DNA of 64,000 bases from Lachnospiraceae bacterium (lineage in GTDB: Bacteria; Bacillota; Clostridia; Lachnospirales; Lachnospiraceae), in NCBI GenBank assembly GCA_017476665.1, contig JAFUZJ010000001.1, positions 21,076-85,075 on the forward strand, written 5' to 3'. The position numbers and the translations under genes were made by a program. This document shows, piece by piece, positions 9,457 through 53,342 of the stretch (positions within the stretch are counted from its first letter, which is position 1; every line of letters begins with the position of its first letter). Below the pieces are notes generated by a model, which worked only from the letters and a program-made list of their open reading frames with translations, was not told where the DNA came from and did no database searches.

Positions 9457-9514
9457 AATAATCCCTCTTGCTCTTTGTCAGTTCAATGTATAAATCTTCC
9501 GTCCGGATACCCGG

Positions 9515-10194: not shown

Positions 10195-10246
10195 ATCTGG
10201 TCTCCCGCCTGGATCTTATCCCTCAAACTATAACCCGACAAAAAAA

Positions 10247-10273
10247 GCATTAAAAATGTAGTATTTTTAATGC
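10247..10273 (-). terminator. Terminator downstream of the truncated tRNA-Arg
   Basis: Arms GCATTAAAAAT and ATTTTTAATGC are followed on the minus strand by seven T. This is the original terminator of the chromosomal tRNA gene. Confidence 0.9.
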
Positions 10274-10279
10274 TTGAAA

Positions 10280-10321
10280 CGTTGGTGAGGCGACTCGAAC
10301 GCCCGATCTTTCGCTTAGGAG
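10280..10321 (-). other. 3' half of tRNA-Arg(CCT): attachment site of the integrated element
   Basis: Read on the minus strand this is the anticodon loop CTCCTAA, its 3' stem GCGAA, a complete T-arm (GGGCG, loop TTCGAGT, CGCCT) and the acceptor strand CACCAAC with discriminator G. The matching 5' stem is absent: the bases upstream (10322 onward) do not pair with GCGAA. The gene is cut exactly at the 5' edge of the anticodon loop, a typical crossover point for tyrosine recombinases. The chromosomal terminator follows, so host DNA lies to the left and the element to the right. Confidence 0.75.
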
Positions 10322-10573
10322 TTAAACTAAACCAAAAATTTTGAACATATTGTGTGTGTTCGCTCCCAGCAAAATCTCTGTTAAACAAAAAAGCCTTTTC
10401 TTTCTGGTTTTTTTGGAAAGCACTCATTTTTATGTAACAACAAAGCATTTTTAATACTATTCAGTTTTTTTACTAATATTAGCATAATAATCAGCAAACC
10501 AGGTTATTACCATCGGTTCTTACACCTTTTTATTAGCTACTGCATTATAATAGGAAGAAACTAATCTCAATTT

Positions 10574-10594
10574 CTATTATTCTCTAAATAATAG
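10574..10594. repeat. Inverted repeat upstream of the first element gene
   Basis: Arms CTATTATT and AATAATAG are separated by 5 bases, 35 bases before the gene at 10629. It may be an operator. The rest of 10322-10573 is AT-rich and shows no gene. Confidence 0.4.
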
Positions 10595-10628
10595 TAGCAT
10601 AAATTCTTACTACAGACAAGGAGGGACT

Positions 10629-11801
10629 ATGGACTATCAGCTACAAGTGAAACAGATTGTAGATTACCCACGATGCCGCATTTATCGTGAGTTTATACGA
10701 TCTTTAATGAAGGACAGGGACATCCGCACTACCGGATGTTCCTATTTATTTTACTACATGACACTATGCTCCTATGCAAACTTCCGCTCCTCTTACCGGA
10801 AACTGGAAGGAATATCCTACCTGATAGAACCCGGGGAGTGGATCTGCCGTACTTCAGAGCTGTCGGAATGGTTTCGTGTCCGGTTTAAGCACCAGGCAAT
10901 CTCCATTATGGATGATCTAGCGCGGCAGCAACTTATCATATACAGCAGACTGGGACGAGGAAATCTGATCAAATTCTCAATCTGCGACTGGAAAAAGCAC
11001 AATACAGCCCTTGAATACAACTACCCATGTCTAAAGGATGTGGGGTTTTTCTTTTTTCCGGTCGCAAAAGTACATGAACTAATCAGCCTGGGGCGGTGTT
11101 CGGAAATGGACATAGTGCTGGATCTGTGGATACATGCCATTTACAATGACGAACAGGTTGAAGGCTCCGAGCTGGGACCGGTGGTTTATTTTCGGGACAA
11201 TACCGGAAATCCGGTCTTAAACTATGCGGATCTGGCTCTCAGATGGGGCATTTCCAAGGCTACTGTCTGCCGAATACTTAACAAATTACAGGATAAGGGC
11301 TATCTCAGCCTCATTTCCTTCACCGGCAGGCATGGAAGCATTATCTACCTGAAGAATTACCTTTCAACCATGTTCCAGATCAGTGATGTAATGATAGATA
11401 AGGAGGAGGTTTCCATGAAATTTCAGGTTCCGGTACATATTAAAGCTACCAAAGATCCTGTAAAGCACTTTATACAGGAGGAGCAGATCATCATAGCCGG
11501 CTCTGAGGACAGCGTTCCAAATGATCCACTTAGCGTTTCAAAAAATGACATTCTCATCATGGTTGAAAAAGTGGCTCAGATTCTTGCCACACAAGGAATT
11601 CCATGCTGTGAATGTCCCAAAACACAATATAAGTTATATCCATTATCCGACTGCAAAGAGCCTAAAGTATCTTACACTATGGAGATCTGCTGCTCAGGTC
11701 GGGATCCCGCCTACCGGTTTGAGCTGACCATATCACCGGCTTCCGATGCTGACTGTCCAGATAAGCAACAACAGACAAGAAAGGAAGAAAACCATGACTG
11801 A
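10629..11801 (+). CDS. Winged-helix DNA-binding protein of the element (unknown role)
   Basis: This 390-residue protein has two HTH-like regions, one near residues 60-110 and a clearer winged helix near residues 195-235 (LALRWGISKATVCRILNKLQDKGYLSLIS). Such a layout is found in replication or transfer regulators of mobile elements. It is the first gene inside the element and has an AAGGAGGG ribosome binding site. Its stop overlaps the next start by 8 bases. The family is not firmly recognised, and replication initiation or regulation is a guess. Confidence 0.7.
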   Translation: MDYQLQVKQIVDYPRCRIYREFIRSLMKDRDIRTTGCSYLFYYMTLCSYANFRSSYRKLEGISYLIEPGEWICRTSELSEWFRVRFKHQAISIMDDLARQQLIIYSRLGRGNLIKFSICDWKKHNTALEYNYPCLKDVGFFFFPVAKVHELISLGRCSEMDIVLDLWIHAIYNDEQVEGSELGPVVYFRDNTGNPVLNYADLALRWGISKATVCRILNKLQDKGYLSLISFTGRHGSIIYLKNYLSTMFQISDVMIDKEEVSMKFQVPVHIKATKDPVKHFIQEEQIIIAGSEDSVPNDPLSVSKNDILIMVEKVAQILATQGIPCCECPKTQYKLYPLSDCKEPKVSYTMEICCSGRDPAYRFELTISPASDADCPDKQQQTRKEENHD

Positions 11802-14570: not shown

Positions 14571-15782
14571 ATGGCTCAGAATGAAAATGAACAGCAGTCT
14601 TCTTTCTCCCGCATGGCTTCCGCTGCAGGCGCAGCCCGGGGGGCTGTGAAAGCCGGGAAAGCCCTTGCAAGTACAGCAAAAGGCGCCGCAGCCGGCCCGT
14701 ATGGTGTGCTGGCGGCAGGATTATGGGAGAACCGTCACACCGTTGCCAAGATCACCGCAGCGTTAGGTACTCTCCTGCTCATCCCAGTTGCATACATTAT
14801 GATGCTCCCGTCCCTGGTCTTTGGGAATGGCGGCCTGGATGATGTCCCAAGGGATGTCCTGCGGGATAACAACGTGATCATGGGCAATATCTCAGAAACA
14901 GAGAGTGCCATCGAAGAGATCCTGCAAAAAAAGCATAATGCGGTCATCAAAAAAATAGAGAACGAAGGCTCCCATCTGGGAAGGCACTGTGAATACAGCA
15001 TCACCGACGAATTTGCAGACCGCATCATTTATGAAAGCACGCTGATCATCTCACAATTTTGTGCCTCCACCGGCAACTACAAGGACATTAACCTGAAACA
15101 GCTGAAAAAAGTGCTGGATACAAAGACGGAAAACATTTTTTCCTATACGGTCACCGTCACGGACAGGGAGGAAACGGATGAGAAGACAAAAAAGACCTAT
15201 ACTGTCCACCACTATGAATACACGGTGCATTACGCAGGCGACAGCTATTATGCGGACAACGTGTTTGAGCTTGATGAAACCAAAAAGACACTCGCGTCAG
15301 AATATGCCAAAAACCTGCACATTTTCCTCTTTGATACCGTTTATCAGGTCAAGTACAATCCAGACCTGCTCCCCGGAGAGACCGGTTCCGCAGCTGTGGA
15401 GCTTGCCCTGACAAAGCTGGGGACACCTTACAGCCAGGAATACCGGAACCAGGAAGGATACTTCGACTGCAGCTCCTTCACTTACTGGGTCTATGACCAG
15501 TTAGGCTTAAACCTCTCCTATGGTGGCGCCAACACTGCGGCTGCCCAGGGACGGTTCATCATGGAGAATGACCTTGCGATTGCCTATGAGGATCTGGCAC
15601 CCGGCGACCTGGTCTTCTATTCCTTTAAGGTCAACAACCGCTTCCTGAACATTGACCATGTTGCCATTTATGCGGGAGACGGGTATGTCGTGGACGCTTC
15701 CTTTTCCAAAAAGAAGGTCGTCCACCGCCAGATCTACAACACCGGCAATATTGTCCTCTGCGGCAGACCATACAAAAACTGA
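14571..15782 (+). CDS. NlpC/P60 cell wall hydrolase of the T4SS
   Basis: The 403-residue protein has an Ala-rich cytoplasmic part, one membrane helix (TAALGTLLLIPVAYIMM, about 63-80) and an extracellular linker. A C-terminal NlpC/P60 domain follows, with catalytic Cys in YFDCSSFTYW (about residue 300) and His in DHVAIYAGDG (about 362). It cuts peptidoglycan stems to open the wall for the transfer channel, the VirB1 role in Gram-positive systems. It lies between the channel and ATPase genes of the operon. Confidence 0.88.
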   Translation: MAQNENEQQSSFSRMASAAGAARGAVKAGKALASTAKGAAAGPYGVLAAGLWENRHTVAKITAALGTLLLIPVAYIMMLPSLVFGNGGLDDVPRDVLRDNNVIMGNISETESAIEEILQKKHNAVIKKIENEGSHLGRHCEYSITDEFADRIIYESTLIISQFCASTGNYKDINLKQLKKVLDTKTENIFSYTVTVTDREETDEKTKKTYTVHHYEYTVHYAGDSYYADNVFELDETKKTLASEYAKNLHIFLFDTVYQVKYNPDLLPGETGSAAVELALTKLGTPYSQEYRNQEGYFDCSSFTYWVYDQLGLNLSYGGANTAAAQGRFIMENDLAIAYEDLAPGDLVFYSFKVNNRFLNIDHVAIYAGDGYVVDASFSKKKVVHRQIYNTGNIVLCGRPYKN

Positions 15783-15798
15783 ATATTGGAGGTAACTC

Positions 15799-18750
15799 AT
15801 GTCAAGAAACGACGAAAACGACATTTATGTCATACCGCCAAACTTTATTGAGACCGGGACAGTCTTTGGCGGCACGATCAAATTAAGGAATGCCGCTGAA
15901 GCCACAGTGATCGCACTGCTCATAGGCATTCCCGTATTCCATATCCCGGTCTCCCTGACAGCAAGGATCATCATAGCCTGCCTCACGGTCCTGCCCACCA
16001 CCCTTTTTGCCCTGATCGGCATTGGCGGGGAGAGCCTTTCTTCTTTTGTGCTGAACTTCTTTCTGTTCCTGAAAAACCGCCGGATCGTTGGCATCACGGA
16101 GGATGAACCAAAAGAAAAAGAGCAGGAAAAGGCAAGGAAACACTCTACAGTAAAGAAAACCAGGCCACAGAAAACGAAAAAAGAGAGTTTTTCCGAGGAA
16201 TTTGGCGACCACGCTGACAGGCGGCAGACCAGAAATGAGCGCAGGCAGACAGACAGCGGACCGGCCGCCTCGTCTGTGGCAAGACCTGCAGATATGCTCA
16301 ACCCTGTGGCATCCTACCTTCCGATCCGGAAGATCGAGAATGGCATCATCTATACCAAAGACCACCGCTACGTGAAGGTCATCGAAGTCATGCCCATTAA
16401 CTTCCTGCTTCGGAGTGCAAGGGAACAGCGCAACATCATCTACTCCTTTGTTGGCTACCTGAAGATCAGCCCCGTCAAGCTGCAGTTTAAGGTCCTCACC
16501 CGACGGGCGGACATCAACAGGCACCTTGAGACCACCCGTGAGGAAATGAAAACGGAAACCGACGAGCGCTGCCTTACCCTCCAGCGGGACTATGAAAACC
16601 TGATCCGCCAGATCGGTACCAAAGAGGCGATCACAAGGCGTTTCTTTATCGTCTTTGAGCATGAGCCGCTTACGGCAAACCGGGGGAATGAGGAAAAAGA
16701 AGCGATCACCGCCCTGGCTACTGCCGTCCGTACCGCTGAAACCTACCTGCGGCAGTGTGGGAATGAAGTGCTCACGCCGGATAACGAGGACGAAATGGCA
16801 ACGGAAGTCCTTTACAGCGTCCTAAACCGTCGTTCCAGCACCACTAAGCCCCTACATGTGCGGATAAACGAGGTCGTGGGGCAGTATGTCAACGCCGGGA
16901 AACGGGAAGACCTTGACCACATCCCCGCCATGGAATTCATGGCACCGGAGTCCATTGACTACACCCACGGCAGCTATGTGGTGATCGACGGAGTGTACCA
17001 GACCTATCTGCTCATACCCTCTGAAGGCTACCGCCCACAGGTTTACGCAGGCTGGATCTCGCTGTTGGTAAATGCCGGAGAGGGGATCGACGTGGACATC
17101 TTCTTTGACAGGCAGCCTAAAGACCGCATCCAGCAAAAGCTCGGACAGCAGCTTCGGATCAACCGTTCCAAGATCAAGGACACCTCGGACACCAACTCGG
17201 ACTATGACGACCTGGACGGTGCTATCCGCTCCGGCTACTACTTAAAGGACGGACTTGCCTCCAATGAGGATTTTTACTATATGAACATCCTCATCACCAT
17301 CACGGGGGACTCACTGGATGAGCTGGAATGGCGCACCTCGGAAATGAAAAAGCTCCTGATCTCAAGGGACATGGACATCATCCACTGCCATTTCCGCGAG
17401 GAGCAGGCACTGCTCTCCTCCCTGCCCCTGGTTTCGTTAGATAAAAGCCTGTTTGAACGTTCCAAGCGGAACATCCTCACCACCAGCGCGGCAGGCTGCT
17501 ACCCGTTCACTTCCTTTGAGATGTGTGACGATAACGGCATCCTGCTGGGAGTGAACAAACACAACAACTCCCTGATCATCGTGGACATCTTCAACTCACG
17601 GGTCTATAAGAATGCGAACATGGCAATTTTAGGCACTTCCGGTGCCGGAAAGACCTTCACGATGCAGCTCATGGCTCTCAGGATGCGACGGAAGAACATA
17701 CAGGTATTTATCATTGCCCCCCTGAAAGGGCATGAGTTCCACCGCGCCTGCACCAATATCGGCGGGGAATTTATCCAGATCTCCCCTGCCTCCAAAAACT
17801 GCATCAATGTGATGGAGATCCGGAAGGTGGATTCCTCCGCCAATGACCTGTTGGACGGACCGCAGACGGAGAAATCAGAGCTGGCAGCCAAGATCCAGCG
17901 GCTCCACATCTTCTTTTCGCTGCTGATCCCTGACATGACACATGAGGAAAGACAGCTTCTTGATGAGGCCCTGATCCAGACCTACAAGCAAAAAGGGATC
18001 ACCCACAACAACGAAAGCCTGCTCGATCCTGATGCGCCGGACAGATACAGGGAAATGCCCGTGTTAGAAGATGTTTACAATATTCTCCTAAAAAACCCGG
18101 ACACCAAAAGGCTCGCCAATATCATGAACCGACTGGTACACGGCTCCGCATCCACCTTCAACCAGCACACGAATGTCAATCTGGACAACAAATATACCGT
18201 GCTGGACATTTCGGAGCTGACAGGGGATCTGCTGACAGTGGGTATGTTTGTCGCCCTGGATTATGTCTGGGACAAGGCAAAGGAGAACCGCACTGTGGAA
18301 AAAGCCATCTTCATTGACGAGACATGGCAGCTCATAGGAGCTTCCTCCAACCGTCTCGCAGCGGAGTTTGTCCTGGAGATCTTCAAGATCATCCGTGGTT
18401 ATGGCGGTTCTGCGATCTGCGCCACCCAGGATCTTAACGACTTCTTTTCGCTGGATGACGGGAAATATGGCAAAGGGATCATCAATAATTCCAGGACTAA
18501 GATCGTCCTGAACCTTGAGGATGAGGAGGCAATGCGGGTACAGAATATCCTGCACCTTTCCGAAGCAGAGACCATGGAGATCACCCATTTTGAACGGGGA
18601 AACGGACTCATCTCGACCAACAACAATAATGTGACTGTGGAGTTCAAAGCCTCAGAGCTGGAAAAAGAGCTCATCACCACCGACAGGGAGGAGTTAAAGC
18701 GGCTTCTGGAAAAGGAAAAGCTGCGGCAGTCTGTGGCAGGAGCAGTTTAA
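15799..18750 (+). CDS. virB4: PrgI-VirB4 fusion ATPase of the T4SS
   Basis: The 983-residue protein starts with a short PrgI/VirB3-like domain (residues 1-100, two helices) followed by a basic linker and a VirB4 ATPase. Walker A is GTSGAGKT (about 613-620) and Walker B is AIFIDE (about 835). A further motif, CATQDLNDFF, lies near residue 875. VirB4 powers assembly of the channel at the membrane. Fusion of the VirB3-like part to VirB4 is known in some systems. A hairpin with a T run lies about 50 bases after the stop. Confidence 0.93.
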   Translation: MSRNDENDIYVIPPNFIETGTVFGGTIKLRNAAEATVIALLIGIPVFHIPVSLTARIIIACLTVLPTTLFALIGIGGESLSSFVLNFFLFLKNRRIVGITEDEPKEKEQEKARKHSTVKKTRPQKTKKESFSEEFGDHADRRQTRNERRQTDSGPAASSVARPADMLNPVASYLPIRKIENGIIYTKDHRYVKVIEVMPINFLLRSAREQRNIIYSFVGYLKISPVKLQFKVLTRRADINRHLETTREEMKTETDERCLTLQRDYENLIRQIGTKEAITRRFFIVFEHEPLTANRGNEEKEAITALATAVRTAETYLRQCGNEVLTPDNEDEMATEVLYSVLNRRSSTTKPLHVRINEVVGQYVNAGKREDLDHIPAMEFMAPESIDYTHGSYVVIDGVYQTYLLIPSEGYRPQVYAGWISLLVNAGEGIDVDIFFDRQPKDRIQQKLGQQLRINRSKIKDTSDTNSDYDDLDGAIRSGYYLKDGLASNEDFYYMNILITITGDSLDELEWRTSEMKKLLISRDMDIIHCHFREEQALLSSLPLVSLDKSLFERSKRNILTTSAAGCYPFTSFEMCDDNGILLGVNKHNNSLIIVDIFNSRVYKNANMAILGTSGAGKTFTMQLMALRMRRKNIQVFIIAPLKGHEFHRACTNIGGEFIQISPASKNCINVMEIRKVDSSANDLLDGPQTEKSELAAKIQRLHIFFSLLIPDMTHEERQLLDEALIQTYKQKGITHNNESLLDPDAPDRYREMPVLEDVYNILLKNPDTKRLANIMNRLVHGSASTFNQHTNVNLDNKYTVLDISELTGDLLTVGMFVALDYVWDKAKENRTVEKAIFIDETWQLIGASSNRLAAEFVLEIFKIIRGYGGSAICATQDLNDFFSLDDGKYGKGIINNSRTKIVLNLEDEEAMRVQNILHLSEAETMEITHFERGNGLISTNNNNVTVEFKASELEKELITTDREELKRLLEKEKLRQSVAGAV

Positions 18751-18785
18751 TAATACATAATATCTACTTAATAAATATGTATTAT
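18750..18785. repeat. Palindrome AATACATA-N16-TATGTATT
   Basis: Arms ATAATACATA and TATGTATTAT are separated by 16 bases. The same half-sites with the same spacing recur at 43299-43330. It lies right after virB4 and before the gene at 18878, and may be an operator for the next operon. Confidence 0.45.
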
Positions 18786-18799
18786 CCCGCACATCCCCC

Positions 18800-18836
18800 G
18801 CTATTTCCTTGTAGCCACTAGGGAAAATAGCTTTTT
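18800..18836 (+). terminator. Probable terminator after virB4
   Basis: Arms GCTATTTCC and GGGAAAATAGC (one bulged base) are followed by TTTTTAT. Confidence 0.65.
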
Positions 18837-18877
18837 ATATGTAAACAATACTTATTCAATACGTAAAGAGGTATGCC

Positions 18878-19399
18878 ATGCACTTATATCAAAAAGAACA
18901 TGAAAACCACCTGTCCGGGATCACAAGGCTGGTATCCATGTACCAGGCAATCTCCACAGAGCAGATAAACCGTTTTTATCCGGAGCTGCCAAGAGACAAG
19001 CTGATGCTGCTCGTCCGCCGCCTGGAAAAGAACGGCCGCATCACCTTTGATCCAGAGAGGGAGCTGCTCCTTTATACAAAGGACTGCACCCCCGATCCAT
19101 CCATGATGAAGGCCCTGTGGGTGCTCACGGACTTTGTGGACGCACTGACCTACCATACCATCAGTGATTTTCCCGTAACCCTGACCTTCTATACGGACTC
19201 CGATGCCTATGAGGTCATCCATGTCCCGCCGGAAAAGGAAATGCTGATGAACCATGCCCTCTCCCTGAAAGAAGGGACAGAAAAACGGCTTGCCATAGTA
19301 GATAGTACGGAGCAGATACCTCGCCTTACCTTCCCGGACATAGCCGCCTTCTGTACGGTCACGGATACCGGACAGGTGCAATATTTCAAGAAACAATAA
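18878..19399 (+). CDS. Conserved element protein (DUF5697-like)
   Basis: The 173-residue protein has an N-terminal winged-helix-like region (ISTEQINRFYPELPRDKLMLLVRRLEKNG is the shape, residues 27-55) and a C-terminal alpha/beta part. I associate it with a DUF5697-type family found beside T4SS genes in Clostridia elements, without certainty. It is followed 16 bases later by 19416. Confidence 0.6.
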   Translation: MHLYQKEHENHLSGITRLVSMYQAISTEQINRFYPELPRDKLMLLVRRLEKNGRITFDPERELLLYTKDCTPDPSMMKALWVLTDFVDALTYHTISDFPVTLTFYTDSDAYEVIHVPPEKEMLMNHALSLKEGTEKRLAIVDSTEQIPRLTFPDIAAFCTVTDTGQVQYFKKQ

Positions 19400-21369: not shown

Positions 21370-23333
21370 ACCCTAACTTAAAGAAAAAAATCTGCCTGTT
21401 TGTCCTGCTTCCCCTGCTCCTGTTCTGCCTTGCCTACGCAGGCGGGTATGTGGCACAGCTTTTGCACAATTACCGAGCATGGTCTGACGCAGGCGGCACT
21501 CCGGGCATGGGTTCTTCGCCCCAGCTTCCCTCCGGCTCTGTTTCCTCCTGCCTGAGCGCCCTCACCCTGTTCCCTTACAGCATCTACGGGATATTGGTCT
21601 GCGTAAGCGGCGCAGGACTCCTGCTCTTTATGGTGATGCGCATGGGCCTGGACGGCCGGGGCATCTATGACCGGGAAAGGAACCTGACCTACTCCGAGAA
21701 GGGAACCTATGGGACTTCCGGTTTCATGACAGGCGCAGAGATGGATGGGGTGCTGGAGTTAGTCCCCCATATCTCTGACTGCAGGGGTGTCATCCTTGGA
21801 ACCCTTCAGGGGAAGGCGGTCTGTCTCCCGGAAAAGACCAGGATGAACCGGAATGTGGCTGTCTTTGGCGCCAGCGGGAGCATGAAAAGCCGCGCATACG
21901 CCCGGAATGTGATCTTCCAGTGCGTCAAGCGCGGGGAGAGCCTCATCATCACCGATCCCAAGTCAGAGCTATATGCTGATACAAGGATCTATCTGGAGAA
22001 CAACGGATACACCGTGAAGGTCTTTAACCTGATCAATCCGGAAAACTCTGACAGCTGGAACTGCCTGGCAGAGGTCGAGGGACAGGAGATCATGGCGCAG
22101 CTCTTCAGCGATGTCATCATCAAGAACACCGGATCTGCCAAAGGGGACCATTTCTGGGACAATGCCGAGATGAACCTGCTGAAAGCTCTGGTATTGTATG
22201 TGGACCAGGGTTTCCCACCGGAGGGCAAGAATATCGGACAGGTCTATAAGCTCCTCACCATGAACTCCGAAAAGGAGCTGAACAGCCTGTTTGACCTGCT
22301 CCCGCTCACCCATCCGGCAAAAGCCCCCTATAATATCTTCAAACAGGCATCCGATGCGGTGCGCGGCGGTGTCATCATCGGACTCGGAACAAGGCTGCAG
22401 GTATTCCAGAACCGCCTGATCCGCGACATCACCAGCCATAATGAGATCAACCTGACACTGCCGGGCCAGCAGAAATGCGCTTATTTCTGCATCACTTCGG
22501 ATCAGGACTCCGCCTTTGACTTCCTCTCCTCCCTGTTCATGTCCTTTGTGTTCATCAAGCTGGTGCGCTATGCGGACAAATACGGGGACTGCGGAAGGCT
22601 GCCCGTGCCGGTACACATCCTGGCAGACGAACTGGCAAACGGGGGCTGCACCATTGCTGACCTGACCAAAAAGATCAGCACCATCAGATCCCGGTGCCTC
22701 TCCATCAGCTGTATCTTCCAGAACCTGCCACAGATGCAGAACCGCTACCCCTTAAACCAGTGGCAGGAGATCATCGGCAACTGTGACACCCAGCTCTTTC
22801 TCGGATGTACTGACCAGATGACGGCAGAATTTATCAGTGACCGCAGCGGTGAGGTGAGCATCGCTGTATCCACCCAGGCAAAACAGCTCAATACCTGGAG
22901 GATCTCCGACTACACTCCGGAATACCGGGAAACCCACTCCGTCGGGAAACGCAAGCTCCTGACTCCGGACGAAGTGCTGCGCCTTCCCCTGGATGAGGCC
23001 CTGATCATCCTGCGCGGGCAAAAGGTGCTGAAGGTGGGGAAATTTGACTACACCCTGCACCCGGAGAGCAAGAAGCTCACACCCTGCCGCGCCAGCGACC
23101 ACGTACCGGAATGGCGCAGGGAACCGGAAACAGCAGAGCCGGACTATACCGCCCTGCTAAAGCCGAAGGCAAAACCCAAAGCACGAAAAACGCGATCGGA
23201 TCCTTTGGTCAAGACCAGCGAACCTTCACCTGCAGACCAGCCTTTTTCCCCGCAGGCGCCTGAAACAGCGGATCTGAAGGACGAAAACCAATGCAAAATC
23301 GTAAGGACGGACAAGCGCTCTATCATGTCCTGA
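21366..23333 (+). CDS. virD4: VirD4/TraG type IV coupling protein (probable CTG start)
   Basis: The 655-residue protein is an AAA+ coupling ATPase that brings DNA substrates to the T4SS. It has two N-terminal helices (KKKICLFVLLPLLLFCLAYA and SIYGILVCVSGAGLLLFMVM). Walker A is GASGSMKS (about 168), then DPKSELY, and the Walker B region is HILADEL (about 416). The start is probably CTG at 21366: AAGGAGG sits 8 bases upstream, and only this start includes the first membrane helix. The next in-frame candidate, GTG at 21450, has no ribosome binding site. The C-terminal tail is Lys/Pro-rich. Confidence 0.9.
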   Translation: MNPNLKKKICLFVLLPLLLFCLAYAGGYVAQLLHNYRAWSDAGGTPGMGSSPQLPSGSVSSCLSALTLFPYSIYGILVCVSGAGLLLFMVMRMGLDGRGIYDRERNLTYSEKGTYGTSGFMTGAEMDGVLELVPHISDCRGVILGTLQGKAVCLPEKTRMNRNVAVFGASGSMKSRAYARNVIFQCVKRGESLIITDPKSELYADTRIYLENNGYTVKVFNLINPENSDSWNCLAEVEGQEIMAQLFSDVIIKNTGSAKGDHFWDNAEMNLLKALVLYVDQGFPPEGKNIGQVYKLLTMNSEKELNSLFDLLPLTHPAKAPYNIFKQASDAVRGGVIIGLGTRLQVFQNRLIRDITSHNEINLTLPGQQKCAYFCITSDQDSAFDFLSSLFMSFVFIKLVRYADKYGDCGRLPVPVHILADELANGGCTIADLTKKISTIRSRCLSISCIFQNLPQMQNRYPLNQWQEIIGNCDTQLFLGCTDQMTAEFISDRSGEVSIAVSTQAKQLNTWRISDYTPEYRETHSVGKRKLLTPDEVLRLPLDEALIILRGQKVLKVGKFDYTLHPESKKLTPCRASDHVPEWRREPETAEPDYTALLKPKAKPKARKTRSDPLVKTSEPSPADQPFSPQAPETADLKDENQCKIVRTDKRSIMS

Positions 23334-23364: not shown

Positions 23365-24594
23365 ATGCCCAGAAAAGCAAAAGTACAAGAACCCCTCACT
23401 GAAGAAACCATCCTGACAGAAGAACCTGTCATGGAGGAGACGCCCAATGATGCTCCTGAGCCGGAACCCACTGGAGAGCAGGACGCACCTGTCGAATCAG
23501 ATGATGCTCCCGAACAGGAGGACTCACCTATCGGATCAGTTGATACTCCTGAATCGGAAGAGCCTGAAGCATCTGATGACATTCAGGAACCGGAAACACC
23601 GGATGAGCAAAAGGCTATTGAGCCTAAGAAAACGAAGGAAAGACCTGCCCCTACCTCCAAGAAAGAAACGAAGCAGCCGGCAAAATCCCCTGCGCCTTCT
23701 ACCATCCTCACCTTGAATGTGGATGACGAGGTGGAAACGCCCCAGAGCCGCGAGGATACCATCTGGCATGAACTGCAGAATGCATACCGCACCCATAAGA
23801 TACTCACTGGCATCCTCGGCGGTATTGAAAGATCGGAAAATGGCAGCACCATCGTTGTCATCTACTATAAGGAGATGCGCGTGGTCATCCCTCTGTCTGA
23901 GATGATGATCAACCTGCCCCAGGACGACGCCCACGACTACGGTGAACTTAACCTTCGGCAGAACAAGATCCTGGGAAATATGCTCGGATGCGAAGTTGAT
24001 TTCCTGATCAAAGGACTGGAAAATGCCAGCCGCAGCGTTGTGGCCAGCCGCAAAGATGCCATGCTGAAGAAAAGGCAGATCTTCTACCTGCCTGATGCTA
24101 ACGGCAACTCCCGTGTCTGCGAAGACCGGATCGTGCAGGCAAGAGTAATCGCTGTGGCCGAAAAGGTAGTCCGTGTGGAGATCTTCGGTGTGGAATGTTC
24201 CATCCTTGCCCGCGACCTTTCCTGGGACTGGCTCGGTGATGCTACCGAAAGCTTCCATGTAGGCGAACAGCTCCTTGTCAGGATACTGAGCGTGAAATGC
24301 AATTCTGTAGATGACATCTCGGTAAAGGCTGATGTCAAGAGCGTGGATGGCAACAGCAAGACCAACCTGAACAAGTGCAAGATCCAGGGCAAATATGCCG
24401 GAACCATCACTGACATCTATAAGGGAACCGTCTTTGTACGGCTCCATATCGGAGTCAATGCCATTGCCCACTCCTGTTATGACAGCCGGATGCCCGGAAA
24501 AAAAGACGAAGTGAGTTTTGTGGTGACGAAGATAGATGAGGAGCGGAATGTAGCAGTCGGACTGATCTCCCGCATTATCAGACAGAACATATAA
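23365..24594 (+). CDS. S1-domain RNA-binding protein with acidic N-terminus
   Basis: The 409-residue protein has a low-complexity Glu/Pro/Asp N-terminus (residues 1-80), a Lys-rich linker and then beta-rich modules. The last module (GKYAGTITDIYKGTVFVRLHIGVNAIAH) is a clear S1/OB fold, and an earlier one (DRIVQARVIAVAEKVVRVEIFGV) looks similar. S1 modules bind single-stranded RNA. It is the last gene of the T4SS-side operon and is convergent with the tRNA array, sharing a terminator-like hairpin. Whether it acts on those tRNAs is unknown. Confidence 0.78.
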   Translation: MPRKAKVQEPLTEETILTEEPVMEETPNDAPEPEPTGEQDAPVESDDAPEQEDSPIGSVDTPESEEPEASDDIQEPETPDEQKAIEPKKTKERPAPTSKKETKQPAKSPAPSTILTLNVDDEVETPQSREDTIWHELQNAYRTHKILTGILGGIERSENGSTIVVIYYKEMRVVIPLSEMMINLPQDDAHDYGELNLRQNKILGNMLGCEVDFLIKGLENASRSVVASRKDAMLKKRQIFYLPDANGNSRVCEDRIVQARVIAVAEKVVRVEIFGVECSILARDLSWDWLGDATESFHVGEQLLVRILSVKCNSVDDISVKADVKSVDGNSKTNLNKCKIQGKYAGTITDIYKGTVFVRLHIGVNAIAHSCYDSRMPGKKDEVSFVVTKIDEERNVAVGLISRIIRQNI

Positions 24595-24600
24595 ACAAGC

Positions 24601-24640
24601 ATCAGGAGCAGACAATCTATATTTCTTGCCTGCTCCTGAT
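24601..24640. terminator. Hairpin between the S1 gene and the tRNA array
   Basis: A perfect 11-base stem (ATCAGGAGCAG / CTGCTCCTGAT) lies between the two convergent units. T runs are weak on both sides, so its efficiency is uncertain. Confidence 0.6.
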
Positions 24641-24649
24641 TATCTTCAG

Positions 24650-24720
24650 CAACCCCTGTGGGAGTCGAACCCACACTGTCGGAACCAAAATCCGATGCGC
24701 TGCCGTTACGCCAAGGGGCA
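24650..24720 (-). tRNA. tRNA-Gln(TTG)
   Basis: Anticodon arm TCGGA-TTTTGGT-TCCGA and T-loop TTCGACT. Acceptor pairing is weak at positions 1-72. It is the last gene of the array in transcription order. Confidence 0.88.
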
Positions 24721-24727
24721 ATATAAG

Positions 24728-24799
24728 TACCTGTACCTCGAATCGAACGAGGATCATGAGGGTAGAAGCCCCATGCTCTATCCTTTAAGCTACACAGGC
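24728..24799 (-). tRNA. tRNA-Arg(TCT)
   Basis: Acceptor GCCTGTG/TACAGGT, anticodon loop CTTCTAC, T-loop TTCGATT, discriminator A. Confidence 0.92.
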
Positions 24800-24803
24800 G
24801 AAA

Positions 24804-24875
24804 CAGGCGTTAATGGGGTCGAACCATTATTTCCGGAGTCAGAGTCCGGTGCACTGACCATTGTGCTAAACGCCT
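24804..24875 (-). tRNA. tRNA-Gln(CTG)
   Basis: Acceptor AGGCGTT/AACGCCT, anticodon stem CCGGA/TCCGG, loop CTCTGAC, discriminator G. Confidence 0.92.
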
Positions 24876-24892
24876 ATATTATTTGGACCTAG

Positions 24893-24988
24893 ATGTCGAT
24901 GCCGAGACTCGAACTCCGATTGTGCGAACTGTAACCGCAGGGTCTATCCCAAGAAACGTTCTTTGTTTCTTTTTAGCCCACACCGACA
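24893..24988 (-). tRNA. tRNA-like gene with D-loop hairpin insertion, apparent anticodon ACA
   Basis: Seven-base acceptor TGTCGGT/ATCGACA with discriminator T (as in tRNA-Cys), T-loop TTCGAGT and anticodon arm TGCGG-TTACAGT-TCGCA. The D-loop carries about 22 extra bases that form their own hairpin (AAGAAAC/GTTTCTT). The T-stem has one G-G mismatch. A normal tRNA-Cys(GCA) lies next to it. This copy may be degenerate or specialised. Confidence 0.55.
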
Positions 24989-24993
24989 CAAAA

Positions 24994-25064
24994 AGTTCCC
25001 AGAGCGAATCGAACGCCCATCTGCTGGGTTGCAGCCAGCCGTCTTGCCTTTGGACTATGGGAAC
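24994..25064 (-). tRNA. tRNA-Cys(GCA)
   Basis: Acceptor GTTCCCA/TGGGAAC, anticodon loop CTGCAAC, discriminator T as expected for Cys. Confidence 0.93.
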
Positions 25065-25069
25065 AAAAA

Positions 25070-25140
25070 TTGTGATGGAGGGAATTGAACCCTCATTGTC
25101 CGCGTATCAGACGGATTTCCTACCATTGAAAGACATCACA
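25070..25140 (-). tRNA. tRNA-Ile(GAT)
   Basis: Acceptor TGTGATG/CATCACA, anticodon loop CTGATAC, T-loop TTCAATT, discriminator A. Confidence 0.92.
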
Positions 25141-25141
25141 G

Positions 25142-25236
25142 CGCAGCTCCTGGGACTTGAACCCAGACACCAGGGAAATGCCCCGATTACTCAGAGATTA
25201 GCAATCTCCTGCCTTACCAGTTAGGCTTAGAACTGC
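25142..25236 (-). tRNA. tRNA-Ser(GCT)
   Basis: Acceptor GCAGTTC/GAGCTGC, anticodon loop TTGCTAA and a long variable arm with a GGG/CCC stem, as in serine tRNAs. Confidence 0.92.
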
Positions 25237-25240
25237 ATGG

Positions 25241-25313
25241 GGTGTCCGACGGGACTCGAACCCGTAACCTGCGGAACCACAATCCGCTGCTCTACCATTT
25301 GAGCTACGACCAC
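25241..25313 (-). tRNA. tRNA-His(GTG)
   Basis: Anticodon loop TTGTGGT, T-arm ACGGG/CCCGT, discriminator C followed by an encoded CCA. The acceptor has one G-A mismatch. Position -1 is T where bacterial tRNA-His normally encodes G. Confidence 0.85.
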
Positions 25314-25315
25314 AG

Positions 25316-25400
25316 CGCAGAGCAAGGGACTCGAACCCTCATTGCCTCACGGCTACACTGCCTTTCCAAGACAGCCTCTTACCAATTAGAGTAACTCTGC
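25316..25400 (-). tRNA. tRNA-Ser(GGA)
   Basis: Acceptor GCAGAGT/GCTCTGC, anticodon loop TTGGAAA, long variable arm with a GCC/GGC stem. Confidence 0.92.
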
Positions 25401-25405
25401 ATAAA

Positions 25406-25488
25406 CGCCGCCTACAGGACTTGAACCTGCACAACCTCTCGGTTTATCCGCTTTCGGGGCGGACGCCTTACCATTAGGCAAAAGCGGC
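25406..25488 (-). tRNA. tRNA-Ser(CGA)
   Basis: Acceptor GCCGCTT/AGGCGGC, anticodon loop CCCGAAA with C at position 33 in place of the near-universal T, variable arm with an AACC/GGTT stem. Confidence 0.88.
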
Positions 25489-25499
25489 ATCATATATAG

Positions 25500-25577
25500 C
25501 ACTGAGAGGGGGATTTGAACCCCAAAGGGTTCTCCGGTTTTCAAAACCGGTGCATTCATCCACTCTGCCATCCCAGC
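25500..25577 (-). tRNA. tRNA-Ser(TGA) with short variable region
   Basis: Acceptor GCTGGGA/TCTCAGT and anticodon arm CCGGT-TTTGAAA-ACCGG fit serine. The variable region is only about 9 bases and could pair with the T-arm, which is unusual for a class II tRNA. Confidence 0.8.
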
Positions 25578-25794
25578 ATTTTTTCAACAAAAAAACCTTT
25601 CCAGATCATGAAATCCGAAAAGGCTACCCGAACAGATATGAAGCTGGTTTTTATACTTTCTGCTTCAACCTTCTTGATTTCATGCGCACTATAACAGACC
25701 ATCTGCTAATTCGATGGCTACACTGGGATGAGCATGAAATTTGGCCGAAATTAACGTTTTTCATTGATTCTGGTTTCCCTTCCTTGTTTTTTAT

Positions 25795-25823
25795 ATTATA
25801 TGTCATTTTACTTTTCATGTCAC
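25795..25823 (-). promoter_or_regulatory. Internal promoter of the tRNA array
   Basis: On the minus strand GTGACA (25818-25823), a 17-base spacer and a perfect TATAAT (25795-25800) lie in the 266-base tRNA-free gap 25578-25843. It would drive the eleven tRNA genes from Ser(TGA) down to Gln(TTG). Nothing else is seen in the gap. Confidence 0.72.
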
Positions 25824-25843
25824 TCTACCTGAAGTAGAATAAT

Positions 25844-25913
25844 CGGGACATTCGGACTTGAACCGAAAACCTGCCGCGTATAAGACGGATGCTCTGCCAT
25901 TGCGCTATGTCCC
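25844..25913 (-). tRNA. tRNA-Ile(TAT)
   Basis: Acceptor GGGACAT/ATGTCCC, anticodon loop CTTATAC, T-loop TTCAAGT. The anticodon UAU reads AUA directly. Most bacteria use a CAT anticodon with lysidine for this codon. Confidence 0.82.
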
Positions 25914-25915
25914 AG

Positions 25916-25988
25916 TGCCCGCACGGGGGCTTGAACCCCGAACCTTCGGATTAAGAGTCCGCTGCTCTACCATTTGAGCTATACAGGC
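25916..25988 (-). tRNA. tRNA-Lys(CTT)
   Basis: Acceptor GCCTGTA/TGCGGGC, anticodon loop CTCTTAA, T-arm CGGGG/CCCCG, discriminator A. Confidence 0.9.
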
Positions 25989-26009
25989 GTATCCGCAGTA
26001 TCCTGCAAG

Positions 26010-26081
26010 TGCGCCTGGAGGGAGTCGAACCCACGGTATACGGGTTAAAAGCCCGTTGCCATTCCGCTTGGCTACAAGCGC
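26010..26081 (-). tRNA. tRNA-Lys(TTT)
   Basis: Acceptor GCGCTTG/CAGGCGC, anticodon arm ACGGG-CTTTTAA-CCCGT, discriminator A. Confidence 0.92.
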
Positions 26082-26088
26082 ATATCTT

Positions 26089-26123
26089 TGCTTATCTTCC
26101 GTTTTATGCTTATCTTCTGTTTT
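26089..26123. repeat. Two tandem 17-base repeats in a tRNA spacer
   Basis: TGCTTATCTTCYGTTTT occurs twice with period 18 and one mismatch, in the 71-base spacer between tRNA-Lys(TTT) and the next tRNA-like gene. Confidence 0.55.
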
Positions 26124-26152
26124 CGTTTCATCTTTCAAATCCTCCTCTATAG

Positions 26153-26249
26153 TTGCGGAAATGGGAGTCGAACCCAATATTTCAAAAGAATTGCTCAGCA
26201 ATTCTTTACTTATAGAGGCTCGCGTGATATTCCGTTCAACTCTTCCGCA
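26153..26249 (-). tRNA. tRNA-like gene with expanded 5' half
   Basis: A seven-base acceptor (TGCGGAA/TTCCGCA) and a T-arm with loop TTCGACT are clear. The only possible anticodon arm is GAATT-GCTGAGC-AATTC (anticodon TGA with C at 33), inside a longer perfect hairpin. About 36 bases lie between acceptor and that arm, so the D-arm is not canonical. It could instead be a degenerate class II tRNA with the hairpin as variable arm. Confidence 0.45.
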
Positions 26250-26254
26250 ATAAG

Positions 26255-26324
26255 CTCCCTCCCCGGGAATCGAACCCGGATACCGTGATTAACAGTCACG
26301 TGTCCTACCGTTGAACGAGAAGGA
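26255..26324 (-). tRNA. tRNA-Asn(GTT)
   Basis: Acceptor TCCTTCT/GGAGGGA, anticodon arm CGTGA-CTGTTAA-TCACG, T-arm CCGGG/CCCGG. Confidence 0.92.
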
Positions 26325-26330
26325 ATCGTT

Positions 26331-26386
26331 GAAGTCATAAGGTCCGATATTTTGTAGATCAGATGGCTGCCATTACCTTATGCTTC
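26331..26386. repeat. Spacer hairpin in the tRNA array
   Basis: Arms GAAGTCATAAGGT and ACCTTATGCTTC fill the spacer between tRNA-Asn and tRNA-Asp. It may guide processing of the polycistronic precursor. Confidence 0.5.
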
Positions 26387-26388
26387 AG

Positions 26389-26463
26389 CGCCCTGTACGG
26401 GATTTGAACCCGTGGTCTCCTGCGTGACAGGCAGGCGGGGACGGCCATCTCCCCTAACAGGAC
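26389..26463 (-). tRNA. tRNA-Asp(GTC)
   Basis: Acceptor GTCCTGT/ACAGGGC, anticodon arm CCTGC-CTGTCAC-GCAGG, discriminator G. Confidence 0.93.
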
Positions 26464-26467
26464 AATA

Positions 26468-26540
26468 TGGAGCTGATGAGGCTTGAACTCACGACCTCCT
26501 GCTCGCAAGGCAGGCGTTCTCCCAGCTGAACTACAACCCC
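26468..26540 (-). tRNA. tRNA-Ala(TGC)
   Basis: Acceptor GGGGTTG/CAGCTCC, anticodon arm CCTGC-CTTGCGA-GCAGG, discriminator A. Confidence 0.93.
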
Positions 26541-26544
26541 ATGA

Positions 26545-26626
26545 TGGACCGGGGAGGACTCGAACCTCCGGTGTTTCTCCGTGGGTGATTTACAGTCACT
26601 TGTCTTCGCCGCTGGACTACCGATCC
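26545..26626 (-). tRNA. tRNA-Tyr(GTA)
   Basis: Acceptor GGATCGG/CCGGTCC, anticodon loop CTGTAAA and a long variable arm, as expected for bacterial tRNA-Tyr. Confidence 0.92.
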
Positions 26627-26669
26627 ATGTTTTTTACTATTCTGTTTGTCAAATGTCTTTTAGCTTGTT

Positions 26670-26701
26670 GGGATCAGGGGAAGCGCCAACTTCCTGATCC
26701 C
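26670..26701. repeat. Spacer hairpin in the tRNA array
   Basis: Perfect arms GGGATCAGG and CCTGATCCC lie in the 106-base spacer between tRNA-Tyr and tRNA-Glu(CTC). No T run follows, so it is more likely a processing or spacer structure than a terminator. Confidence 0.5.
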
Positions 26702-26732
26702 CAGTTTTATAAAATTTTTCCCCATAGGGACG

Positions 26733-26806
26733 TACTCCGTGCCGGATTTGAACCGAGCATCTCCGCCTTGAGAGGGCGACGGCGTAGCCAATTTGCCTAA
26801 CGGAGC
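26733..26806 (-). tRNA. tRNA-Glu(CTC)
   Basis: Acceptor GCTCCGT/ACGGAGT, anticodon loop CTCTCAA, T-loop TTCAAAT, discriminator A. Confidence 0.9.
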
Positions 26807-26810
26807 ATAA

Positions 26811-26883
26811 TAGCACCTGCGGGAATTGAACCCGTCTTTTCCAGCTTGAAGGGCTGGCGTCCTAGCCTTTAGACCAAGGTGCC
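26811..26883 (-). tRNA. tRNA-Glu(TTC)
   Basis: Acceptor GGCACCT/AGGTGCT, anticodon arm CCAGC-CCTTCAA-GCTGG. Position 33 is C, as in the Ser(CGA) gene of this array. Confidence 0.88.
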
Positions 26884-26886
26884 AAG

Positions 26887-26959
26887 TGGGTGGTAACGGT
26901 ACCGACCCGTTCTCTGTGGTTCTTCAGACCACCGCTTTCACCATGTAAGCTAACCACCC
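26887..26959 (-). tRNA. tRNA-Phe(GAA) with unusual T-loop
   Basis: Acceptor GGGTGGT/ACCACCC, anticodon arm GTGGT-CTGAAGA-ACCAC. The T-stem AACGG/CCGTT encloses GTCGGTA rather than the usual TTCRANY-type loop. It is the first tRNA of the array. An ORF with a TGGAGG site (ATG at 27002) runs through it to a stop at 26862, perhaps by chance. Confidence 0.85.
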
Positions 26960-27026
26960 TTTGTTCTTTGAAGTGGCTGCTTCTAAATCGTTCATGTCCC
27001 ATTGTGTTTTCCTCCATCAAACCATT

Positions 27027-27068
27027 AAAAAAGGGAACTGTCTTTGGTTTATTCCTCAGACAATTCCC
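27027..27068 (-). terminator. Intrinsic terminator between the small ORF and the tRNA array
   Basis: Arms GGGAATTGTCT and AGACAGTTCCC (one mismatch) are followed on the minus strand by six T. It lies 30 bases after the stop of 27098-27286 and 68 bases before tRNA-Phe, so tRNA transcription from the upstream promoter must read through it. Confidence 0.85.
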
Positions 27069-27097
27069 TGGATTTCTGCATTCACAAACGGACGGTA

Positions 27098-27286
27098 TCA
27101 TCCACCGTTTCTGCACCTGGGTTGTCTGATCACAGCATGATATTTTTCTTCCAATTTGGATATAAGGTCATAATCATAGCGCTCCAAATCCATAATAAAG
27201 GCAAAATTTGCGCGCAGGAAATCAAGGCTCATAAACAGTGAGCTAAGGCAATTCATATTCTGCTTTTGAACTCTTGTCTTCTGCAT
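27098..27286 (-). CDS. 62-residue leader or small regulatory protein before the tRNA array
   Basis: The ATG follows GAGGAGAAAGATC, a good ribosome binding site. The product (MQKTRVQKQNMNCLSSLFMS...) is basic at the N-terminus with a mixed helical body. I recognise no family. It lies between two intrinsic terminators that precede the tRNA array, so it could be an attenuation reading frame or a small regulator. Coding status rests on the ribosome binding site and position only. Confidence 0.5.
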   Translation of the reverse strand: MQKTRVQKQNMNCLSSLFMSLDFLRANFAFIMDLERYDYDLISKLEEKYHAVIRQPRCRNGG

Positions 27287-27321
27287 GATCTTTCTCCTCA
27301 TCCAAATTCTTAACTGTAACA

Positions 27322-27379
27322 AAAAAGGAAGCGCTCCTATTTCTTTGTATCAAAAAGAAAAGGATTGGCGCTTCCTTTG
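27322..27379 (-). terminator. Intrinsic terminator immediately after the array promoter
   Basis: Long hairpin: outer arms AAGGAAGCGC/GCGCTTCCTT and inner arms TCCTTTTCTTT/AAAGAAATAGGA with a 7-base loop. It is followed on the minus strand by TTTTTTGTT. It starts at about the expected first transcribed base of the promoter at 27385-27413, so it may act as an attenuator. It also terminates the BlaI-like gene. Confidence 0.88.
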
Positions 27380-27384
27380 AAAGT

Positions 27385-27413
27385 ATAATAGCACTGAAAA
27401 AAACATCTGTCAA
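27385..27413 (-). promoter_or_regulatory. Strong promoter upstream of the tRNA array
   Basis: Perfect TTGACA (27408-27413), a 17-base spacer and TATTAT (27385-27390) on the minus strand. The predicted start (about 27378) lies at the base of a terminator hairpin. Confidence 0.82.
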
Positions 27414-27469
27414 CTACTTTTTTGAAAAATTTTTTTCTCCCCAAATGGTGAAACACCGCCAAACAGCTA

Positions 27470-27880
27470 TCAAAGTGTCTTCTCATACTCCCTGACCGCT
27501 TTTTTCATCTGCGCGATTTCATTTTTCTTTTCCGCATCTGACTCCGTATCCATCTCCAAAAGGTAGGCACATACATCCCTTAATGAAACAATGTATGCTA
27601 CGCTGCTGTACATCTGCTTGAAATGCTCCGTAATTGTCTCCAGACATGTTGCGCTTGGCTTATACATCCTGCTCAGAACTTTTCCACTATGGGTAACACC
27701 ATCCACTTCCACAAGATTTTCCCGCAGCATCTTTCTGAGAACGGCCGTAACCGTACTTTGTGTGAGTCCCTTTCTCCTCCCCACGATCTGCGTTGCAGTA
27801 AGGCTCTTATCCGATCCACATAAAATAGATAAAACGTCCATCTCTCTCTGATTAAGCAATTTTCTTTCCTCCATAATCAT
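27470..27880 (-). CDS. BlaI/MecI-type winged-helix repressor
   Basis: The 136-residue protein has the BlaI/MecI winged helix (LNQREMDVLSILCGSDKSLT, then QSTVTAVLRKMLRENLVEV) and a C-terminal dimerisation helix. BlaI-type proteins repress nearby genes as dimers. No BlaR-like sensor is present. It is divergent from the XRE gene at 27993 across a 112-base gap with a perfect palindrome. It lies upstream of the tRNA array and may control it. The start could be the ATG used here, or a TTG eight codons later (just before LNQREMDVL) that is better spaced from GGAGG. Confidence 0.8.
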   Translation of the reverse strand: MIMEERKLLNQREMDVLSILCGSDKSLTATQIVGRRKGLTQSTVTAVLRKMLRENLVEVDGVTHSGKVLSRMYKPSATCLETITEHFKQMYSSVAYIVSLRDVCAYLLEMDTESDAEKKNEIAQMKKAVREYEKTL

Positions 27881-28609: not shown

Positions 28610-30646
<2,037 letters not shown>

Positions 30647-52511: not shown

Positions 52512-52540
52512 AATGACTGTCAACAAAGGAGGCAATGCCT

Positions 52541-52771: not shown

Positions 52772-52801
52772 GAACCAGCTAAACGAAACACTAATAACAC
52801 C

Positions 52802-52840: not shown

Positions 52841-52867
52841 TTTACAGAAGGGAGGCTGACCCGCCCT

Positions 52868-53338: not shown

Positions 53339-53342
53339 GAAT

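Follow-up and report, generated by a model that had tools for sequence, protein, structure and literature searches.

The purpose of phage and plasmid tRNA genes has been debated for decades. The question is raised again by a stretch of 64,000 nucleotides (contig C2:21076-85075 of our genome G000, hereafter the window) from a Lachnospiraceae draft genome of 3.64 Mb, in which a dense array of tRNA genes spans positions 24649-26959. Within the window, ARAGORN called 20 tRNA genes, each of them on the minus strand, and Rfam returned 20 matches at gathering scores for the whole window, all to RF00005 (tRNA) and all within the array. Two further slots (24894-24988 and 26153-26250) are tRNA-like or broken, so that the 20 genes and two tRNA-like genes on one strand named in the original prediction were recovered. 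How might a mobile set of this size be put to use? To judge from the organization of the locus, the array is very probably a module for inducible tRNA replacement, whose transcription units are under ribosome-mediated attenuation.

According to this model, each unit would open with a leader open reading frame (ORF) written in codons that are read by the tRNA genes downstream. With ample charged tRNA, the ribosome would reach the leader stop codon and cover the 3′ end of the leader, and the terminator would form ahead of the tRNA genes. If a cognate tRNA were missing or cleaved, the ribosome would stall within the codon run; the 3′ end of the leader would then pair with the 5′ arm of the terminator, and RNA polymerase would pass into the replacement tRNA genes. 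At many sister loci such read-through would extend to the ligase RtcB, which could re-ligate cleaved tRNAs. Since the sensor codons and the product belong to the same tRNA species, each unit would form a feedback loop on individual tRNAs.

Codon match between the leaders and the tRNA genes downstream

Short leader ORFs with Shine-Dalgarno-like sites were found, and their translation is predicted from the sequence. In the second unit of the window the leader is followed by Ser(TGA), Ser(CGA), Ser(GGA), His, Ser(GCT), Ile(GAT), Cys, Gln(CTG), Arg(TCT) and Gln(TTG). Eighteen of the 36 codons of this Ser leader are read by its own block, as compared to a fraction of 0.20 expected from background codon use. 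None of 2000 random gene segments of equal length was as good, and the best 16-codon window was not equalled in 5000 trials. The Lys leader (26072-26131), upstream of Lys(TTT), Lys(CTT) and Ile(TAT), has 10 cognate codons out of 18.

Similar pairs were found elsewhere. At locus L094, YYLHSEHYEALFSKEKE lies upstream of Lys, Glu, Glu, His, Tyr and Ser(GCT), and at L101, which has no Lys tRNA, the leader lacks the SKEKE run. TCA, ATA, GAA and TAT codons go with Ser(TGA), Ile(TAT), Glu and Tyr at L193, and CAG plus TAT/TAC runs with Gln(CTG) and Tyr at L187. Plasmid pRUMAL01 of Ruminococcus albus 7 harbors three leader/tRNA blocks, one of them with SYSYSYSS upstream of Tyr and four Ser tRNAs. On the gut phage contig MT835946, KFCKSSYSFKHSSYSKK stands ahead of Lys, Phe, Ser, Ser, His, Cys and a Tyr-like gene not called by ARAGORN. 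A leader of the genus g36 contains NKQFNNKQFMQFCKNQKCF upstream of Gln, Cys, Phe, Lys, Lys, Gln, Asn and Met, and 19 of 19 residues of this run fall within the downstream set (Gln, Cys, Phe, Lys, Asn, Met). Thus, to judge from these sequences, leader content often follows array content.

The match was also determined for whole sets of loci by shuffling leaders against blocks. For 16 S-type loci (one locus per distinct leader/tRNA pairing, L187 added by hand; near-duplicates, tRNA-less loci and upstream ORFs that were plainly other genes excluded), the score of the own pairings was 36.05, compared to a shuffled mean of 21.69 (standard deviation 2.68), and none of 20,000 shuffles reached it. With 11 leaders that represent separate families or blocks (a few share an array or plasmid), none of 100,000 shuffled pairings matched as well. 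The same applied to 50,000 shuffles of 32 S-type leaders obtained by rule-based extraction, a set that retains near-duplicates, counts mis-called broken tRNAs and lumps both blocks of the g36 arrays.

The leaders might instead encode functional small proteins, whose codon match merely results from composition. Their peptides are conserved, and single-base codon differences among the Ser leaders were 58 synonymous and 66 non-synonymous, with position 3 affected in 73 out of 124. However, where the tRNA set differs the peptide tends to differ too, and no shuffled pairing equalled the match of the own pairings, which makes this explanation highly improbable.

Terminators and potential antiterminator pairing

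A terminator-like hairpin with a T run followed 28 of the 28 leaders examined, with energies from -13.9 to -23.1 kcal/mol, and a terminator was also present after five leaders of the 11-leader set. The 3′ end of the leader is able to pair with the 5′ arm of the terminator, for instance AAGATAAG with CTTATCTT and GAGATAAG with CTTATCTC. In the window, pairing is possible between the 5′ arm of the terminator at 27027..27069 and the IRQP codons of ORF1, and between that of the terminator at 25589..25624 and the leader end ATGAAATC.. of the Ser block. Pairing was stronger for the 3′ than for the 5′ part in 21 of 22 leaders (from 23 loci, one being dropped as its start pattern was not found), and own terminator arms paired better than swapped ones (p=0.0019). 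When the leaders were shuffled, at most 21 of 300 sequences were as good for each of six Ser and eight ORF1 leaders.

These elements also bear on the possibility that the array is a constitutive codon supply boosting translation of the element's own genes. The broad tRNA set of large arrays (20 genes here, 27 calls in the G155 array) would suit such a role, yet terminators lie between leader and tRNA genes and the leader codons fit the block, and we regard it as very unlikely. A somewhat better candidate, though still an improbable one, is amino-acid starvation sensing by ordinary attenuators that react to uncharged tRNA, the tRNA output being a by-product. The leader architecture is indeed that of trp/his attenuation. 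On the other hand, about seven amino acids (Ser, Gln, Ile, Cys, His, Arg, Trp) are represented among the codons of a single leader, and an output of tRNAs and RtcB does not restore an amino acid.

Several results weigh against the attenuation model. The leaders carry the regulatory codons of a ribosome-mediated attenuator except for ORF1, the leader of the whole array, in which cognate codons are no more frequent than in the background (19 of 61), and the match is weak at L192, L175, L238 and the phage locus L247. Lys and His codons are kept at L096, L104, L105, L145 and L178, where an intact Lys tRNA or an intact His tRNA is missing from the ARAGORN calls (several of the uncalled slots seem to be interrupted). 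The leader of L101 likewise includes an AGT codon, although this locus has no Ser tRNA. Of the 11 leaders scored against all blocks, six gave their highest score with their own. Background codon use was taken from only 16 window genes, the shuffle statistics ignore relatedness among loci, the leaders of the large arrays were first spotted by eye, and most of the genomes compared are metagenome-assembled genomes (MAGs). The terminators of the S-type leaders are not independent evidence, because the extraction rule, which asked for a Shine-Dalgarno-like site, also demanded a downstream T run, and in the shuffled-leader test 12 S-type leaders gave 0 to 252 of 300 sequences as good, several being unexceptional. 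No terminator was seen for the Lys and Leu leaders. Finally, some loci hold a leader and RtcB but no called tRNA genes.

The Lys leader of the window extends into the first tRNA gene, as does each of the five Leu leaders. Translation may therefore directly block the folding of that tRNA, which is a guess. The five Leu leader ORFs (L039, L087, L088, L116, L118) run in frame into tRNA-Leu(TAA), whose anticodon TAA is their stop codon.

RtcB, the XRE regulator and its putative operator

An RtcB ligase gene was present in 10 of 20 related loci; in genome G006 it was identified by a PF01139 match. The window array has none, nor was RtcB found among the 33 window ORFs scanned. The presence of RtcB in many such operons points to cleaved tRNA as the trigger, and we infer that the units respond to cleavage rather than to starvation. 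As a separate observation, the genome of the window contains a leader-attenuator-RtcB-XRE locus without called tRNA genes (L194, G000:C13:20000-26000).

Many loci also encode an XRE-type regulator. The palindrome TAC-N5-GTA, a pattern defined after the sequences had been seen, lies beside the promoter upstream of 23 of 33 leaders, compared to 728 of 10,000 random windows, and sites of the TATACCACAAGTATA type are candidate XRE operators. By acting on this conserved site beside the promoter, the regulator probably adds a second level of control. The XRE profile matched in 54 of 385 genomes of the order (E<=1e-18) and in 20 of 371 genomes of the class (E<=1e-10). At 17 of 27 order-level XRE loci no tRNA was called within the 3 kb examined. 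In a further scan of 24 loci, from which the weakest class-level matches (L254-L265) were left out, five had any tRNA call, two of these being parts of g36 arrays that were already known. For the XRE relatives on Ligilactobacillus salivarius pMP118 and phage contig MT835545, ARAGORN called no tRNA gene on the strand of the match within the stretch inspected.

Features of the array in the window

Table 1. Positions of tRNA genes, control elements and flanking genes in the window
Feature	Position	Strand	Basis or remark
Unit 1 promoter-like site	27385..27413	(-)	TTGACA-17-TATTAT, 11/12, TG ahead of -10
Terminator-like hairpin right after promoter 1, ahead of ORF1	27321..27375	(-)	-22.5 kcal/mol, z -5.3
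Leader ORF1, 62 amino acids, MQKTRVQKQ..IRQPRCRNGG	27098..27286	(-)	kept in sister arrays
Attenuator terminator 3′ of ORF1	27027..27069	(-)	-20.5 kcal/mol, z -5.0
Small ORF2, MGHERFRSSHFKEQ..	26862..27002	(-)	reads through whole tRNA-Phe into tRNA-Glu
tRNA-Phe(GAA)	26886..26959	(-)	ARAGORN, Rfam
tRNA-Glu(TTC)	26810..26884	(-)	ARAGORN, Rfam
tRNA-Glu(CTC)	26732..26806	(-)	ARAGORN, Rfam
tRNA-Tyr(GTA)	26543..26627	(-)	ARAGORN, Rfam
tRNA-Ala(TGC)	26467..26541	(-)	ARAGORN, Rfam
tRNA-Asp(GTC)	26388..26463	(-)	ARAGORN, Rfam
tRNA-Asn(GTT)	26254..26325	(-)	ARAGORN, Rfam
Broken slot, Met in sister arrays, with perfect palindromic hairpin	26153..26250	(-)	slot reading, sister comparison
Lys leader ORF, MKRKQKISIKRKISKDMRL	26072..26131	(-)	AAA, AAG, ATA codons; stop codon within tRNA-Lys(TTT)
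tRNA-Lys(TTT)	26009..26081	(-)	ARAGORN, Rfam
tRNA-Lys(CTT)	25915..25988	(-)	ARAGORN, Rfam
tRNA-Ile(TAT)	25843..25914	(-)	ARAGORN, Rfam
Unit 2 promoter-like site	25795..25823	(-)	GTGACA-17-TATAAT, 11/12; adjoins operator-like palindrome TACTTCAGGTA
Ser-block leader ORF, MKNVNFGQISCSSQCSHRISRWSVIVRMKSRRLKQKV	25651..25764	(-)	cognate codons given in the text
Ser-block attenuator terminator	25589..25624	(-)	-15.7 kcal/mol, z -5.1
tRNA-Ser(TGA)	25499..25577	(-)	ARAGORN, Rfam
tRNA-Ser(CGA)	25405..25489	(-)	ARAGORN, Rfam
tRNA-Ser(GGA)	25315..25400	(-)	ARAGORN, Rfam
tRNA-His(GTG)	25238..25313	(-)	ARAGORN, Rfam
tRNA-Ser(GCT)	25141..25236	(-)	ARAGORN, Rfam
tRNA-Ile(GAT)	25070..25140	(-)	ARAGORN, Rfam
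tRNA-Cys(GCA)	24994..25064	(-)	ARAGORN, Rfam
tRNA-like slot, Arg(ACG) in sister arrays, D-loop hairpin	24894..24988	(-)	uncalled by ARAGORN
tRNA-Gln(CTG)	24803..24876	(-)	ARAGORN, Rfam
tRNA-Arg(TCT)	24727..24799	(-)	ARAGORN, Rfam
tRNA-Gln(TTG)	24649..24720	(-)	ARAGORN, Rfam
Strong hairpin right after last tRNA gene, possible end terminator	24601..24640	(-)	-25.4 kcal/mol, z -5.4
VirD4	21450-23333		NF045973 above cut-off
S1-domain ORF	23365-24594		protein library scan
LigA	28610-30646		protein library scans

Both units of the window possess a promoter-like site matching 11 of 12 positions upstream (Table 1); in the region 24500-27500, six promoter-like sites were found, compared to 3.4 expected by chance. 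The attenuators, the operator-like sites and the link to RtcB are points that the original prediction did not contain. The hairpin at 27321-27375 recurs in sister arrays. The spacer between tRNA-Asn and tRNA-Asp (26326-26387) is a potential hairpin whose stem differs on both sides between arrays (CATAAGGT/ACCTTATG in the window, CATGGGGC/GCCCCGTG in L087).

T-box riboswitches were considered as well and rejected: the gathering-score matches of Rfam in the window are all tRNA, and no T-box was detected up to E=1 in the region 24600-27420.

When the array was compared to the tRNA genes of its host, a same-anticodon copy was available for 9 of the 20 array tRNAs among 29 host tRNAs, this low number being due to the draft genome, which lacks many host tRNA genes. 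Eight usable same-anticodon pairs gave identities of 63-76%; an identity of 0.07 for Ser(CGA) was an aligner artefact and was disregarded. By these identities the array is not a duplicate of the host tRNAs, and the view that no host operon had been duplicated was upheld.

Genomic setting and mobility

The predicted flanks of the array, VirD4 and S1 genes on one side and LigA on the other, were confirmed by the library scans. As to the proposed conjugative element, VirD4 and a VirB4-like ATPase scoring below the NCBIfam cut-offs support this part of the claim, whereas a search of 33 window ORFs (of 176 mechanically called ORFs), each against one library or more, revealed neither a relaxase nor an integrase; the conjugative element is thus confirmed in part. 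No exact direct repeats of >=13 nt link 8900-11500 with 52000-57500, the presumed ends of the element, and both ends of the window carry chromosome-like genes. What can be stated is that a dense array, diverged from the host tRNAs, resides on mobile DNA.

The same genome contains a homologous second array on contig C21 (L039). The common DNA corresponds to positions 24728-27414 of the window and thus to the tRNA genes plus the leader region. Outside of it, C2 and C21 had no DNA in common by blastn at E 1e-5, and their proteins gave a single weak match. Because the C21 homologue shares only this region, the array behaves as a module that is not tied to the type IV secretion element. A single fixed chromosomal locus, by which the original prediction would have recognized host DNA, was not found, as the flanks of the two arrays of this genome differ.

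The neighbors of the C21 array (L039:1079-9611 and 14913-19039) comprise AbiLi/AbiLii, AriA-like ATPases, a type I restriction-modification system, a DarG-like macrodomain and a TOTE-type primase-helicase. This setting fits a conflict with tRNA-cleaving systems, and survival of tRNA-cleaving defences or toxins is the likely use of the module. An anti-defence role is favoured over codon supply, since leaders match their own block, RtcB is present in half of the 20 related loci and a sister array is located among defence genes.

Sister arrays and smaller loci

Using an ORF1 profile, such arrays were detected in 6 of 138 genomes of the genus, the own genome included, and at 7 loci in genome_contigs. 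The named contigs with an ORF1-type leader come from MAGs of Acetatifactor sp. or Lachnospiraceae, and sheep rumen is the source of at least one. ORF1 was not found in viral contigs, in which the small-array leader occurred at one locus. By DNA similarity, plasmid and phage collections covered <=8% of the array among the matches listed.

In the arrays of C21, G045, G018, G137 and G155, a Leu-rich ORF (e.g., MLRLRLLLQLN) lies upstream of tRNA-Leu genes, of which four were called per array (three plus an interrupted one in G018). The tRNA-Leu genes of large arrays (L039:11787-12134, L087:11216-11546, L118) are 74-78 nt long and have no long variable arm; four host Leu tRNAs seen for comparison measured 83-86 nt. 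Several sister arrays include an RNase H-like gene (L087:10488-11003; C21 12206-12715, L039), which is missing in the window array. It was assigned by PF04308 for the L087 copy, homologues being identified by blastp.

The tRNA genes of sister arrays often contain short palindromic hairpin inserts in the D-loop, anticodon, variable or T-loop (L039:9871-13500, L088:1200-4755, L089, L090, L118). An insert of approximately 30 nt of the CTTAGCCCGGATCGAAGATCCGTGCGCCTG type was repeatedly found in T-loops, in both orientations. A comparison of hairpin density (perfect stem >=9, loop 3-8) yielded too few hairpins for testing the palindrome inserts. One might suspect that the array is degenerating and that palindromic elements and integrases use it as a landing site, in view of such inserts in many tRNA genes of the C21, G018 and G011 arrays and the two broken slots of the window. 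But 20 of the 22 window slots were called intact, the leaders are conserved and the G155 array still has its 27 tRNA calls; decay is accordingly a very improbable explanation.

Many genomes of the genus possess small loci, in which a leader, a terminator, often RtcB, and an XRE regulator are followed by a few tRNA genes. Leader profile A2 matched in 15 of 138 genus genomes and in 2 of 392 genomes of the order sample, one belonging to the same genus and the other being weak and interrupted. A small array with a near-identical leader was seen in another family of the class (L249, G820:C11:17353-17571), which may reflect horizontal transfer or contamination.

Relation to known systems and significance

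In trp/his attenuation, a ribosome without cognate charged tRNA stalls in the codon run and frees the antiterminator strand, whereupon transcription passes on. The loci described here share the leader ORF with regulatory codons, the terminator and the competing leader-terminator pairing. They differ in that tRNA genes (plus RtcB) are under control and that the leader codons correspond to the very tRNAs encoded, with several kinds combined. In the RtcR operon, RtcB is induced as damaged tRNAs accumulate. There, the sensor is a protein activator, RtcR, whereas here it would be the ribosome translating the leader. Ribosome-mediated transcription attenuation at trp/his leaders is treated in PMC1183508, and the RtcR-controlled rtcB RNA repair operon is named in PMC10272220.

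The latter source describes the trn operon of Anabaena, a 26-gene tRNA array on a megaplasmid that is silent until translational stress and whose repressor TrcR also represses rtcB (PMC10272220). It resembles our loci in the plasmid-borne array and the rtcB link. Its control, however, is by a ribbon-helix-helix repressor, and the main text contains neither 'leader' nor 'attenuat', while here control would sit in the leader of each block. Phage tRNAs have been proposed or shown to offset tRNA-targeting defences and are likewise spare mobile tRNAs; neither main text mentions leader or attenuat (PMC10264068, PMC11555353). Mycobacterial tRNA array units on linear plasmids, with variant tRNAs and a putative antidefense role, are also located on mobile DNA, and the terms promoter, leader, attenuat and RtcB are absent from the text (PMC12803027).

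Mobile tRNA arrays, phage anti-defence tRNAs, a plasmid tRNA operon that is induced by stress and shares its regulation with rtcB, and ribosome-mediated attenuation are known. Their combination, tRNA genes under leaders in those tRNAs' own codons, was not found in the PubMed Central (PMC) literature among the matches listed. No PMC title or abstract start among these matches dealt with leader-peptide attenuation of tRNA genes, subscription papers lying largely outside this search.

Taken together, we lean towards the view that the loci represent a widespread, mobile, codon-programmed system, which would sense the loss of particular tRNAs via matching leader peptides and answer with those tRNAs, often together with RtcB, to counter tRNA-cleaving immunity or toxins. 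In Clostridia of the gut and rumen it would be found on an element of conjugative type, on a plasmid, on phage contigs and at further loci. If the attenuators work, the leader codons name the tRNA loss that each block answers, and function could therefore be read from the sequence and tested by simple reporters. The finding suggests a route by which spare plasmid and phage tRNAs may be deployed once the host tRNAs are destroyed. If true, the scope of attenuation would widen to include tRNA genes in addition to amino-acid operons, and mobile tRNA arrays would be tied to repair by RtcB.

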